Assembly: GCA_947632435.1 (NCBI GenBank)
Contig: CANRPC010000005.1
Location: 1-64,000 of the forward strand
Direction: 5' to 3'
DNA length: 64,000 nt
Origin: an uncultured Bacilli bacterium
Lineage (GTDB): Bacteria; Bacillota_I; Bacilli_A; RFN20; CAG-449
This document shows positions 9,160-13,580 of this stretch, one piece after another (position 1 is the stretch's first letter; every line of letters begins with the position of its first letter). Made by a program: the position numbers and the translations under genes. Under the pieces are notes generated by a model, which saw only the letters and a list, made by a program, of their open reading frames with translations, was not told the origin of the DNA and searched no databases.

Positions 9160-11310
9160 TTATTTGCTAATTTCTATTTTACATAAATCATTATCCATGT
9201 AATCAATTTTAATCTTGTATTCCATTTTTGATCCATCATGCATCAATGAATTTGTAAAGAAATTTGTATATAAAGCAGGATCCATAATGTCGCCTTCTTT
9301 AAATAAAGAATTATTATTAGCAATTTTTGATCTATAGGTAGAACGATTATCCGCGGTTATTAATTCAATCAAATGTTGATTGTTATAAGAACGACTTGGA
9401 GTATTAGAACTTGCAATTGTTAAATCACCTTCTAAATTTAAAGTGTCTTTATCTAGATATTGATATCCAGATCCATCAAATTTAATTATTCTTGCATCAA
9501 TATGAAATATTCTAACACCATTTTTCGTAAAATAATTAGGGCGATTTACATATGCATTTTCTGCATCAAATTTATTTAATCCAGTAGGTGTATCATATTC
9601 TATAATTAAATATTCATCAAATGGGGAATCATTATAATTTGTACATGGTATAACAATGCATTCACCTGAAGTAGAAAATGGTTTTAAATTAATATATGAA
9701 TCATCATTAACAATATAAGGATTTACCCATCCTAAACTAAATTTTGAAAAGGCATCGTGATCACCAATATTATAATCCATCATTCCTAAACCTCCAAAAC
9801 TTGAAGTGTAGTTAGTACTTGTGGTGATATAATAATCATCTAAACCAAGCATATGTCCCGTTTCATGGAATAAAGTATGTCCATCAAGACCTTGATCATT
9901 TCCTTCATAAGTAAAATAAACGCTGCAATTTGCATAGACAGATATTTTTTTCTCATCATTAAAACGATACCAATAAGTATAAGGCCAATATTTAGATGAT
10001 GTTGAAGCTCTATCATCATTATAAATAAACCAAAATCCATCGATATAGCCATCATCATTAGCATCATAGCTTTTATCATTATAATTAATTGGATTTCCAT
10101 TTATTGTTAATTTATCATACATATCTTGAATTAAAATTTGCGTTTCTGATCCATAATCATCGGTATATTGATTAAATGTTGTTGAAGAAAATGAAGGTGT
10201 ATAAACATCAGTATATACAAAATCAAGATCTAAATTTCCATAGCTTGATTTATAATAAAAGCTTTTTAATGATTCATAATAATCGTTAGAATTATCTTCT
10301 TTTGTTCCTTCAAAAACAGCTTTTAATTTATCCATGTTTTCTTGTTTTTTAAAATCATAAACATTTACTAAATCATAAAAGTTAATAGGAACTACGATAA
10401 TTTTAACTTTTCCTTTAGAAGGTACAATACTATAATTAGCATCTGCTTTATATAAATCATCATAAATAAATCGTGGTTTTTCTAATAATTTAAAGCCATT
10501 TAAGATTTTTTCTTCAATAGCAAATATATTAATAAAAGTAGAATAATTACCTTCTTTTGTTGTTATTTTTACTATATGATTACCGACAGTTAAAGCTTTA
10601 ACTTTTGTATCTTCGATTTTAATAAATTCATCATCGCTGCTAATTATAATATCTTTATATGTAGCGTTTTTTGGACTTATTTGATAAGAAGAACTAATAT
10701 CGATGTAACGATTAATTTCTACTTCAATATCACTTATTTTATTTATTCCTTCTACTTTAATTGGTTCTGCTTTTTTAATTAGTAAACCTTTAAAAAATAA
10801 GGATTCATCTTTACCTCGACAAGTAAAAGATAAGGAATGAATTAAAGTAGGTTCTTCAAAATTGTATATTACTTTTTCTTCTTGGCTAATATTAATAGTA
10901 AAAGAATAATTTTCATTATAAATAATTTTTTGACTAAATTGATTTTCTACTGCTTTAGCATAAAATGTTAAGGAATTAACTAGAATTGGTTCAACTAAGT
11001 CAATACTTATTGTTCCACCTAAAACCTTAGAACCAATACGATAAGCAGAATCATTATTTGATATGATTACACTTCCTGAATATGATAAAGTGGCATTGAA
11101 ATTATAAAAATCAAAATTTTCATTTTCAAATGTTGCTCCTTTAACTTCATTCATAAACATTCCAAAGTCATAACCATTAAAAATTTGATTTGATGAAGGT
11201 GTTGATAAAGTTTCTGAGTTATAAGAACTAGAGGTTGATGAAGTTTTATTACAACTTGTAAAAGTAAAACATCCAAATATAATTAAACTTAAACATAAAA
11301 TTTTTTTCAT
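9160..11310 (-). CDS. M6-type metalloprotease lipoprotein
   Basis: This is a surface zinc protease of the immune-inhibitor-A-like (M6) group. The signal peptide ends in the lipobox FTSC (Cys20), followed by a Ser/Thr-rich spacer. Residues of about 45-190 look like a beta-sandwich domain of unknown type. Residues 190-265 resemble a bacterial Ig-like domain with the ending VGNHIVKITTKEG. The catalytic region contains HETGHMLGLDDYY near residue 483: two zinc His, the catalytic Glu, then His/Asp in the M6 pattern. At 716 residues it looks complete. It is monocistronic. The substrate is unknown; host or dietary glycoproteins are only a guess. Confidence 0.88.
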   Translation of the reverse strand: MKKILCLSLIIFGCFTFTSCNKTSSTSSSYNSETLSTPSSNQIFNGYDFGMFMNEVKGATFENENFDFYNFNATLSYSGSVIISNNDSAYRIGSKVLGGTISIDLVEPILVNSLTFYAKAVENQFSQKIIYNENYSFTINISQEEKVIYNFEEPTLIHSLSFTCRGKDESLFFKGLLIKKAEPIKVEGINKISDIEVEINRYIDISSSYQISPKNATYKDIIISSDDEFIKIEDTKVKALTVGNHIVKITTKEGNYSTFINIFAIEEKILNGFKLLEKPRFIYDDLYKADANYSIVPSKGKVKIIVVPINFYDLVNVYDFKKQENMDKLKAVFEGTKEDNSNDYYESLKSFYYKSSYGNLDLDFVYTDVYTPSFSSTTFNQYTDDYGSETQILIQDMYDKLTINGNPINYNDKSYDANDDGYIDGFWFIYNDDRASTSSKYWPYTYWYRFNDEKKISVYANCSVYFTYEGNDQGLDGHTLFHETGHMLGLDDYYITTSTNYTSSFGGLGMMDYNIGDHDAFSKFSLGWVNPYIVNDDSYINLKPFSTSGECIVIPCTNYNDSPFDEYLIIEYDTPTGLNKFDAENAYVNRPNYFTKNGVRIFHIDARIIKFDGSGYQYLDKDTLNLEGDLTIASSNTPSRSYNNQHLIELITADNRSTYRSKIANNNSLFKEGDIMDPALYTNFFTNSLMHDGSKMEYKIKIDYMDNDLCKIEISK

Positions 11311-11421: not shown

Positions 11422-11820
11422 TTATTCTTTTATAATTACTTTATTTATATTTTCATTGCAAATATATTCTTCAATATTATTAATTAAAGAATATTTTAAT
11501 AGTACATAGCCAATTATTGCATAATAATCAATTTTTAGATGATTTAAATAATAATCAAAACTAAATTTTTTAATTTTTTCTTTACTATTGAATAAAAAAG
11601 CATAATTTTTTAAATACTTTTCAAAGTCAATAATATAAAAGTATTTATTTCTTAATTTTGCATCAAGTAAACCTAATTTTTTTATATCTGCGAAAGGATT
11701 ATTTAATTCTTTATCAATATTTTGTAGATCAATAAGTATAGTAAAACTTTTATAATCAGTAAGATTTTCTAAATGTTCTAAAGCCTTTTTAATACATCCT
11801 TTATTAAAGCTAATTTCCAT
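11422..11820 (-). CDS. Hypothetical protein in the spo0A transcription unit
   Basis: I do not recognise this 132-residue protein. It has no signal peptide or membrane span. It is rich in Lys, Asn, Ile and Tyr, with predicted alternating helices, and has ILIDLQNIDKELNNPFADIK as its least degenerate stretch. It starts 7 bp after the spo0A stop with AGGT seven bases before its ATG, so it is almost certainly cotranscribed and coupled with spo0A. That position makes it a candidate partner or modulator of Spo0A, but that is guilt by association only. Confidence 0.65.
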   Translation of the reverse strand: MEISFNKGCIKKALEHLENLTDYKSFTILIDLQNIDKELNNPFADIKKLGLLDAKLRNKYFYIIDFEKYLKNYAFLFNSKEKIKKFSFDYYLNHLKIDYYAIIGYVLLKYSLINNIEEYICNENINKVIIKE

Positions 11821-11827
11821 ATTTTAC

Positions 11828-12613
11828 CTATATGGAAACTTTTTCGCGTTTCATATCTTCAATTGTTAAATAATCTGCGATCATGGCTATAAATTCAGAA
11901 TTTGTTGGTTTATCTTTGTTGCGTGATATGCTGTAGCCAAAGATACGATTAATAGTATCGGTATCACCACGATTCCATGCAACCTCTATTGCATGTCTTA
12001 TAGCTCTTTCGACTCGAGAACCAGTAGTATGAAATTTAGCAGCAACTTCAGGATATAACATTTTTGTAATTGCTCCTAAATATTCATTTCCATTTTCACA
12101 GCACTGTTTAATAGCTTGTCTTAAATAAACATAGCCTTTAATATGTGCAGGAATACCAACTTCATGTAATAGCATAGTAATTTTTTTATCTAATGAATCT
12201 TCATTTAAAATTTGATTGCTTACTTTAACATCTGTTGGTGCTTTATCTAATTGATGCATATGATAAAGTAATGATGACATATTAAATGGCTTAAGAATAT
12301 AATCGTCAATATTAAATTCTTCGGCGTTTTTAAGCATCACTTGATTCATAAAAAATGGTATGGCAATAATATGATTTATTCTTACACTTGGGTGATTTTT
12401 TACTAAGCGTAAAGTTTCAAATCCATCATGAATAGGTAACATTAAATTAATTAATAAATAATCAATATATCCTAAATCGATAATTCTCTCTGCGGCTTTT
12501 TTACCATCTTCTTCAAAGCCTAGTACTTCATATTTGTCTTTTTTTGTTAATTCCTGTACAACTTCGTTAATTAATGCTTTGTCGTTATCGACTATAAATA
12601 CTGTTTTTCTCAT
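11828..12613 (-). CDS. spo0A: Spo0A-type response regulator with Asn at the phosphorylation site
   Basis: Spo0A is the master regulator of sporulation entry in Firmicutes. The 261-residue product has a receiver domain (1-120) and the Spo0A-specific DNA-binding domain, whose [18 protein letters not shown] recognition region and [15 protein letters not shown] tail are near-identical to Bacillus. In the receiver, [12 protein letters not shown] aligns with Bacillus VLDIIMP: residue 56, the phosphoacceptor Asp, is Asn, and the acidic pair DD is DN (residues 9-10). The Lys of LKPF is kept. Phosphorelay activation as known therefore seems impossible. AGGAGG precedes ATG 12613. Confidence 0.95.
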
Positions 12614-12692
12614 TTTTCCTCCTAATAGTATAGTTCATAGCGTAAAAAGTCATTTTCTAATAAAACGGCACTTTTTTCTACGATACGAAACA

Positions 12693-12721
12693 ATTATAAG
12701 TTGTAATTAGTAACATATCAA
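12693..12721 (-). promoter_or_regulatory. Promoter of spo0A
   Basis: On the minus strand TTGATA (12721-12716), a 17-bp spacer and a perfect TATAAT (12698-12693). The leader before spo0A is about 70 nt. No Spo0A box core is visible here, unlike the autoregulated Bacillus gene. Confidence 0.75.
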
Positions 12722-12754
12722 GCAAAAAATGACAAATTTTTAAAACAAAAAGAG

Positions 12755-12784
12755 GTTTACAAAGATAAACATATATGCTAAAAT
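12755..12784 (+). promoter_or_regulatory. Promoter and candidate operator of the XRE gene
   Basis: TTTACA (12756-12761) and TAAAAT (12779-12784) are 17 bp apart with an extended TGC before the -10. An inverted repeat GTTTA-caaaga-TAAAC (12755-12770) overlaps the -35, a typical place for autorepression by the XRE protein. Confidence 0.6.
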
Positions 12785-12813
12785 TGTAATATATTGAAAA
12801 AAGGGAGCGAAAA

Positions 12814-13212
12814 ATGACATTTCAAGAAAGATTTAAGCAATTAAGAAAAGAAAAAGGAGTTAATATTTCTAAACTCTCAAGAGCAATAGGAGTTTCACGC
12901 TTTGCCATTATGAAATGGGAAAAGGGAGAAACTAAGCCTACTATGGAAGTACAAAAAAGATTATGTGAATTCTTTAATGTTACTTCTGATTATTTAATGT
13001 GCATGAGTGATAACAAAAGTTTTGTTGTCGATAACTCAGATCAATTTATTATTGATTTATCTAAATACAGTTTCATTTTAACTGATGAACAAAAACAATT
13101 TATTCTTGAACTTGCAAAACAATCTTATAATTTAAGAAAAAATATTTATAAAGAACGCAAGAAAAAAGAAAAAGAAAACACTGGTTTAGAAGAAGAAAAC
13201 AAAGAAGAATAA
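12814..13212 (+). CDS. XRE-family transcriptional regulator
   Basis: A DNA-binding regulator with an N-terminal HTH of the XRE/Cro type (residues 1-62: FKQLRKEKGVNISKLSRAIG then the recognition segment SRFAIMKWEKGETKPTME). The C-terminal half is short, helical and highly charged, ending in a Lys/Glu-rich tail (KKKEKENTGLEEENKEE), so probably an oligomerisation rather than ligand domain. At 132 residues it recalls SinR-sized regulators, but orthology to SinR is not supported. It is divergent from spo0A with about 200 bp between starts, so the two may cross-regulate. AGGGAG precedes the ATG, and a strong terminator follows. Confidence 0.88.
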   Translation: MTFQERFKQLRKEKGVNISKLSRAIGVSRFAIMKWEKGETKPTMEVQKRLCEFFNVTSDYLMCMSDNKSFVVDNSDQFIIDLSKYSFILTDEQKQFILELAKQSYNLRKNIYKERKKKEKENTGLEEENKEE

Positions 13213-13299: not shown

Positions 13300-13436
13300 T
13301 TATATAAATTAAAAAATTTAATATAGTTAATATTTATAAAATATTACTTAAAATTGAAATCATTTTTCATAATTCGATAATAAAAAAAATCATAAAAAGG
13401 CTTTTATATTTTTTTCCCATATGCTATTCTAAGGGT

Positions 13437-13580
13437 GTAAAAGTTGTATATCTTGGAAATATGGTCCAAAGTTTCTACGTACTACCGTAAATGGTACACT
13501 ACAGCTCAAATGATTTAATATAGTTGTTTGTGCTTTTTTGTGTTGTTACTTTGGGACATCTTTCTTAAGGTGTTCCTTTT
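13437..13580 (+). promoter_or_regulatory. Purine (guanine-type) riboswitch with attenuator
   Basis: The aptamer (13442-13506) has P1 AGTTGT/ACAGCT, L2 AATATGG, J2/3 GTTTCTAC, P3 GTACT/GGTAC and loop ACCGTAAAT, all matching the xpt class. The specificity base in J3/1 (ACT) is C, as in guanine/hypoxanthine sensors. A terminator follows: GGGACAT (13553-13559) with GTGTTCC and TTTTTT. CTCAAA after P1 (13505-13510) can pair with TTTGGG (13550-13555), giving an antiterminator that ligand-stabilised P1 would block, so expression should fall when guanine is plentiful. An extended -10 TGCTATTCT lies at 13422-13430. Confidence 0.88.

Follow-up and report, generated by a model that had tools for sequence, protein, structure and literature searches.

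An aspartate-less Spo0A in a genus of uncultured Bacilli that carries sporulation genes

The spo0A locus and its altered receiver pocket

We analyzed a 64,000-nucleotide stretch of DNA (referred to as the window) from an uncultured bacterium of the Bacilli lineage CAG-449, whose genome assembly comprises 1,681,788 bp at 26% GC and is 98% complete. The window carries the only spo0A copy of this genome. The encoded protein has the receiver and Spo0A_C architecture: it scores 220.1 bits against the NCBIfam Spo0A family (TIGR02875; cut-off 200), 145.4 bits against Spo0A_C in Pfam (PF08769; cut-off 25), and 46 bits against Response_reg. Its closest solved structure is 1lq1, a Spo0A-DNA complex. The features of the locus are listed in Table 1.

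Table 1. Coordinates of features at the window spo0A locus and of genes for HxxKGxxG/HATPase proteins in other genomes
Feature	Position	Strand	Evidence
132-residue ORF, 7 bp downstream of spo0A, no family	11422..11820	minus	ORF list, family searches
spo0A, 261 residues, receiver and Spo0A_C effector	11828..12613	minus	ORF from ATG to TAG, domain and family searches, model
Spo0A_C DNA-binding effector, residues 145-249	11867..12181	minus	Pfam; fold match to 1lq1
Effector helix 198-215 with conserved 15-residue stretch	11969..12022	minus	Alignment, model
Codon 108, Lys, conserved receiver Lys kept	12290..12292	minus	Pocket alignment
Codon 86, Pro where receivers have a conserved Thr/Ser	12356..12358	minus	Pocket alignment
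Codon 56, AAT (Asn), position of phosphorylated Asp56	12446..12448	minus	Codon reading, alignment of relatives
Acidic pair Asp9-Asn10, metal-binding second Asp lost	12584..12589	minus	Pocket alignment
Intergenic region shared with divergent gene, no significant 0A box	12614..12813		0A-box scan
Divergent Cro/CI-type (RstR-like) regulator gene	12814..13212	plus	Family searches
HxxKGxxG/HATPase gene, G172	L196:2406-3437
HxxKGxxG/HATPase gene, G171	L199:784-1791
HxxKGxxG/HATPase gene, G174	L242:1522-2511
HxxKGxxG/HATPase gene, G173	L243:1453-2478
HxxKGxxG/HATPase gene, G043	L197:3114-3992
HxxKGxxG/HATPase gene, G044	L198:1987-2814

The 132-residue ORF is probably cotranscribed with spo0A, and a reading of the DNA made from its sequence alone (the sequence-only reading) had proposed its product as a possible controlling partner. 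That proposal failed: the ORF has no relative in the two sister species (G031 and G032) and only chance-level matches among 279 genomes of the order. Being unique to the window genome, it was ruled out as a conserved partner. The neighbors of spo0A also differ in the sister species, where the gene lies by a NuoE/NuoF/HydA-like cluster (names by sequence reading). At this locus, the divergent Cro/CI-type regulator is a candidate controller of spo0A transcription; it is absent at spo0A in the sister species. No Rfam element was found in the 5' region of spo0A. Elsewhere in the window, a purine riboswitch (RF00167, 65 bits, 13424-13521, plus strand) precedes a 729-residue ORF of secreted type, and a 716-residue lipoprotein-like ORF (9160-11310, minus strand) downstream of the spo0A unit has a partial match to M6-type metalloproteases, below the NCBIfam cut-off.

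The pocket residues of the window Spo0A are D9, N10, N56, P86, and K108, and both sister species have D, S, N, S, and K at these positions. Asn at residue 56 and the change of the acidic pair from DD to DN had been noted from the sequence and hold within the 261-residue ORF; Pro86 is a further change that the earlier claim did not include. With both the acceptor (N56) and the second residue of the pair (N10) replaced, the protein is best described as a Spo0A orthologue by descent, not as a phosphorylation-activated Spo0A. These substitutions argue strongly that phosphotransfer at the usual site has been lost, and some pocket chemistry could remain through the retained Lys.

We modeled the protein with AlphaFold2 from 67 aligned sequences. 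The receiver was predicted with canonical secondary structure and pLDDT mostly above 90, and the linker (residues 128-138) with low confidence. In Foldseek comparisons, the effector model matched 1lq1 with a target TM score of 0.91, and the receiver model matched phosphorylated Spo0A (1qmp) with a TM score of 0.86 and an rmsd of 2.5. The receiver fold therefore appears to be kept in the model even though the pocket chemistry is not, and a predicted receiver fold lacking the acceptor Asp is that of a pseudo-receiver. The effector had been described as nearly identical to the family. This is true of the 15-residue recognition-helix stretch, which shows no difference from the Bacillus and Clostridium sequences it was compared with, but not of the whole effector, which is about 62% identical to that of Bacillus Spo0A. 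Within the genus, receivers are 40-56% identical and effectors 77-87%. Pairs from Bacilli and Clostridia with the same effector identity have receivers averaging 53-68% identity, indicating that the receiver in this genus evolves somewhat faster. Faster receiver evolution is also seen in Asp56-bearing relatives of the order.

Residue 56 among relatives

A search of the 279 genomes of the order found Spo0A, complete or partial, at 25 loci. The three species compared within the genus are the window species, G031 (Spo0A 55% identical to the window protein), and G032 (68%). All three have Asn56 together with a non-acidic second residue in the acidic pair, and codon 56 is AAT in each. Since these genomes are draft assemblies, an error of sequencing or assembly, or a mutation of one strain, might be suspected, and the sequence-only reading had named Asp56 in relatives, together with an intact phosphorelay, as what would betray one. 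No such relative was found within the genus. The sister species also carry Asn56, and the same codon stands in three separate species assemblies among flanking codons that diverge, which leaves this explanation a negligible chance.

Every other Spo0A-bearing member of the family has Asp56. Outside the family, Asn56 arose independently in G042 (codon AAC), whose congener G041 has Asp. In a Spo0A tree built after removal of the residue-56 column, the window genus forms one clade (support 100) nested within the group that joins its family with genus g35. Two independent D-to-N changes, one on the stem of the genus and one in G042, account for the data. The window Spo0A thus groups with the Spo0A proteins of the species' relatives, as an orthologue does, which rules out horizontal replacement of the gene.

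Among 105 aligned Spo0A sequences, 98 have Asp at residue 56, four have Asn, one has Glu (the degenerate receiver of G001), and two do not cover the site. With a further 66 sequences, almost all of them sampled evenly across the phylum, the counts were 161 Asp (of 169 readable), five Asn, and one each of Thr, Glu, and Leu, with two gaps; the single Leu belongs to a misaligned 150-residue effector fragment. Over the whole protein, only at residue 56 and at residue 228 (Thr to Ser) do more than 90% of relatives agree while each of the three genus members differs. The second acidic Asp is lost by itself more often, as in G034, G035, G039, G041, and Holdemania, and this residue is missing in both Asn56 lineages as well. 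Because G041 and G042 share the loss of this Asp and of the conserved Thr, these losses probably preceded that of Asp56 in their lineage.

Other departures from the usual pocket were seen in the enlarged set. The only Spo0A found in G493 (97% complete; L442, G493:C14:58050-58950) has Thr56 and Glu at the conserved Lys. G474 carries, besides a high-scoring Spo0A, a second paralogue with Asn56 and Leu for Lys (L446, G474:C163). In G001 (61% complete), two Spo0A-type proteins on separate contigs (L367, L368) combine a degenerate receiver with a conserved effector. Spo0A proteins of Thomasclavelia and similar ones keep Asp56, have Gln, Tyr, or Ile for the conserved Lys, and often lack the first acidic residue (Lys-less loci L045, L055, L063, L414, L415, L419, L422, L423, L426, L427, L437, and L438).

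Sporulation genes, 0A boxes and the search for a phosphate source

The window genome carries the run spoIIAA-spoIIAB-sigF-spoVAC-spoVAD-spoVAE-gerA-like; a second run of ftsZ, a 247-residue gene at the position of spoIIGA, sigE, and sigG; and sigK, which passes its NCBIfam subfamily cut-off. Most of these genes score below the NCBIfam equivalog cut-offs, so their names reflect best match and gene order; the 247-residue gene has no family match and is called spoIIGA by position only. The three genus members and G042, which also carries spoIVB, each have a SpoIVA scoring above the cut-off. Across 14 control genomes, SpoIVA was found in B. subtilis only, and genus g2, from the same family as the window genus, has neither Spo0A nor SpoIVA. 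SpoIVA and the sporulation sigma factors, which together mark an endospore former, occur in both the window species and G031. Two of the three genus genomes are about 90% complete; one of them, the draft of G032, has no detectable sigE or sigG, and its spore program may be incomplete or unassembled. In the window genome, spoIVB (C7:69621-70598) stands in the canonical recN-spoIVB-dinB-xerD order. The gene spo0A follows spoIVB in five examined loci of other genera; here it is gone from the slot between spoIVB and dinB and sits elsewhere.

Sites matching the 0A box accompany these genes. Each of the three species has a box at a matching position upstream of spoIIAA, reading TTTGTCGAA in G031 and G032 and TTTGTCTAA, with one mismatch, in the window species. 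The sequence TTTGTCGAA also precedes the gene at the spoIIGA position in the window species and G031 (p 0.001-0.008 for the spoIIAA and spoIIGA-position boxes, compared with Markov-shuffled sequence). Across the window genome, TTTGTCGAA occurs 19 times, five of them upstream of genes; 150 permuted motifs averaged 0.64 such sites, and one of them reached five. The shorter TGTCGAA occurs upstream of genes 15 times compared with 4.5, a count matched by none of 179 CG-containing permutations. Further sites precede spoIVB (TTGTCGAA), dnaA, and a SpoIIIAH-like gene, named by sequence reading and gene order. Upstream of spo0A itself, G031 has perfect boxes, suggesting autoregulation; the window species has no significant box and G032 a single, non-significant one.

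We also looked for a source of phosphate. The window genome encodes three receivers: Spo0A, a BceR-like regulator adjoining its own kinase and ABC transporter, and a regulator adjoining a LytS-like kinase. The HATPase_c proteins found at E values up to 10 were the BceS-like and LytS-like kinases, GyrB, ParE, MutL, HtpG, and SpoIIAB, the last five named by length, position, and neighbors. There was no match to HisKA or to SPOB_a (Spo0B), no stand-alone receiver (Spo0F), and no orphan histidine kinase, as each of the two kinases lies beside its own regulator. Neither a Bacillus-type phosphorelay nor a Clostridium-type orphan kinase was thus found in the window genome. In the sister species, G031 yielded no HisKA kinase and G032 one hybrid kinase with receivers of its own. 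The view that DNA binding is under selection in this protein while phosphorylation is not, already put forward from the sequence, agrees with the genus-wide loss of the acceptor, the retained 0A-box targets, and the lack of a phosphorelay in this search.

Genera g35 and g11, which carry Spo0A with Asp56, encode a soluble orphan protein that combines an HxxKGxxG motif with a HATPase domain, a candidate Spo0A kinase of unusual architecture (loci in Table 1). The motif is Hpt-like, Pfam Hpt matches are weak (E 0.002-0.09), and model confidence is moderate. G043, G171, and G172 yielded no HisKA kinase. Nothing similar to the HxxKGxxG/HATPase protein was found in the window genus. An exact pairing of Asp56 loss with orphan-kinase loss failed, because genus g3 and G034 keep Asp56 and have no recognizable orphan kinase; absence of the kinase alone does not track loss of Asp56. 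A 496-residue HATPase protein of G027 was rejected as an orphan kinase, since by sequence reading it resembles a MORC/Hsp90-like ATPase.

A probable sporulation regulator with a pseudo-receiver

In domain order, effector fold, recognition helix, 0A boxes at spoIIA and the spoIIGA position, and vertical ancestry, the window protein matches Spo0A of Bacillus and Clostridium (TIGR02875; 1lq1, 1fc3, 1qmp, 1dz3). It differs in lacking Asp56 and the second acidic Asp and in having Pro for Thr; its gene is not beside spoIVB, and Spo0F, Spo0B, and an orphan kinase were not found. In studied species, Spo0A is activated by phosphorylation of Asp56. In clostridia, orphan kinases phosphorylate Spo0A directly (PMC3533761, PMC11210211, PMC6136694). 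The window genome resembles clostridia in having no Spo0F-Spo0B relay, but it lacks the acceptor, and no orphan kinase was found in it.

Receivers lacking the aspartate are already known. RitR of Streptococcus has Asn53 at the phosphorylation site (PMC4395418), and it shares with the window Spo0A an altered pocket and a retained receiver fold (predicted here); in contrast, it belongs to another effector family with another regulon and is not a sporulation regulator. ChxR, HP1043, FrzS, and Rem likewise have atypical receivers, and several such regulators are reported to dimerize or act without phosphorylation (PMC12632262). None of the four is presented there as an endospore master regulator, and that source does not mention Spo0A. 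A literature search, conducted largely outside subscription journals, did not turn up any spore former reported to have a Spo0A without the aspartate.

We consider it likely that the window protein is a vertically inherited, orthologous Spo0A whose receiver has become a pseudo-receiver, and which, although not phosphorylated at the usual site, still binds 0A boxes and most likely starts sporulation. Under this reading, the unphosphorylated protein would bind the 0A boxes before sporulation genes, and its output would be set by the amount made, by something that binds the receiver, or by both. Constitutive activity or control by protein level, as suggested in the sequence-only reading, may apply, and so may autoregulation or a ligand.

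Two versions of this explanation differ in the input they assume. One, which we put forward tentatively, has Spo0A kept inactive until its receiver is bound by a small molecule or by the product of a gene at another locus. A receiver that keeps its predicted fold after losing its catalytic residues would suit such a role, and pseudo-receivers controlled by partners or ligands have been discussed (PMC12632262); however, no conserved neighbor or candidate partner emerged, given the differing neighborhoods and the restriction of the 132-residue ORF to the window genome. The other, which we rate on a par and so short of an even chance, is a constitutively active Spo0A controlled purely through its synthesis or stability, for example by the divergent Cro/CI-type regulator. 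The perfect boxes upstream of G031 spo0A and the promoter region shared with the divergent gene in the window species fit control by abundance, whereas the lack of a comparable box at spo0A in the window species and G032, and the lack of conservation of the regulator gene at spo0A, do not.

It seems unlikely that acetyl phosphate or a Ser/Thr kinase phosphorylates another residue, such as Asp9, Asp11, or a Ser/Thr. The window protein does have Asp9, Asp11, Asp63, and Lys108, and its Asp11 is shared by both sister species. Against this, the second acidic Asp, a direct metal binder in receivers (PMC12632262), is Asn or Ser throughout the genus, no orphan histidine kinase is left, and Asp63, a neighboring Asp of the kind raised as a possible acceptor, is the 'DG' Asp that receivers commonly have, rather than a new acceptor. 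Decay of Spo0A in a lineage losing sporulation is quite improbable. It would account for the faster divergence of the receiver, the departure of spo0A from its usual site, and the missing sigE and sigG of G032, but the effector identity of 77-87% within the genus, the intact ORFs, 0A boxes under selection, and the core sporulation genes that the window species and G031 retain speak against it. A Spo0A with no role in sporulation is contradicted by the sporulation genes and 0A boxes.

The pseudo-receiver reading may extend beyond this genus. We lean slightly toward the view that among uncultured Bacilli the initiation of sporulation has been freed at least twice from phosphorylation of Spo0A, with Spo0A abundance or a receiver ligand as the trigger. 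The lineages concerned would be the window genus (Asn), G042 (Asn), and G493 (Thr), and partial loss of the pocket is widespread in the class.

One published abstract describes Spo0A activation as the step that gates sporulation in every bacterial spore former (PMC11115286). A lineage with a spore program, whose sole Spo0A has no acceptor and in which no phosphorelay is left, suggests that the phosphate gate is replaceable. A phosphorelay should not be assumed wherever a genome carries spo0A. How pseudo-receivers switch was termed a mystery in a recent review (PMC12632262), and the window genus offers a natural test of this switching and of the roles that a receiver may have besides accepting phosphate.
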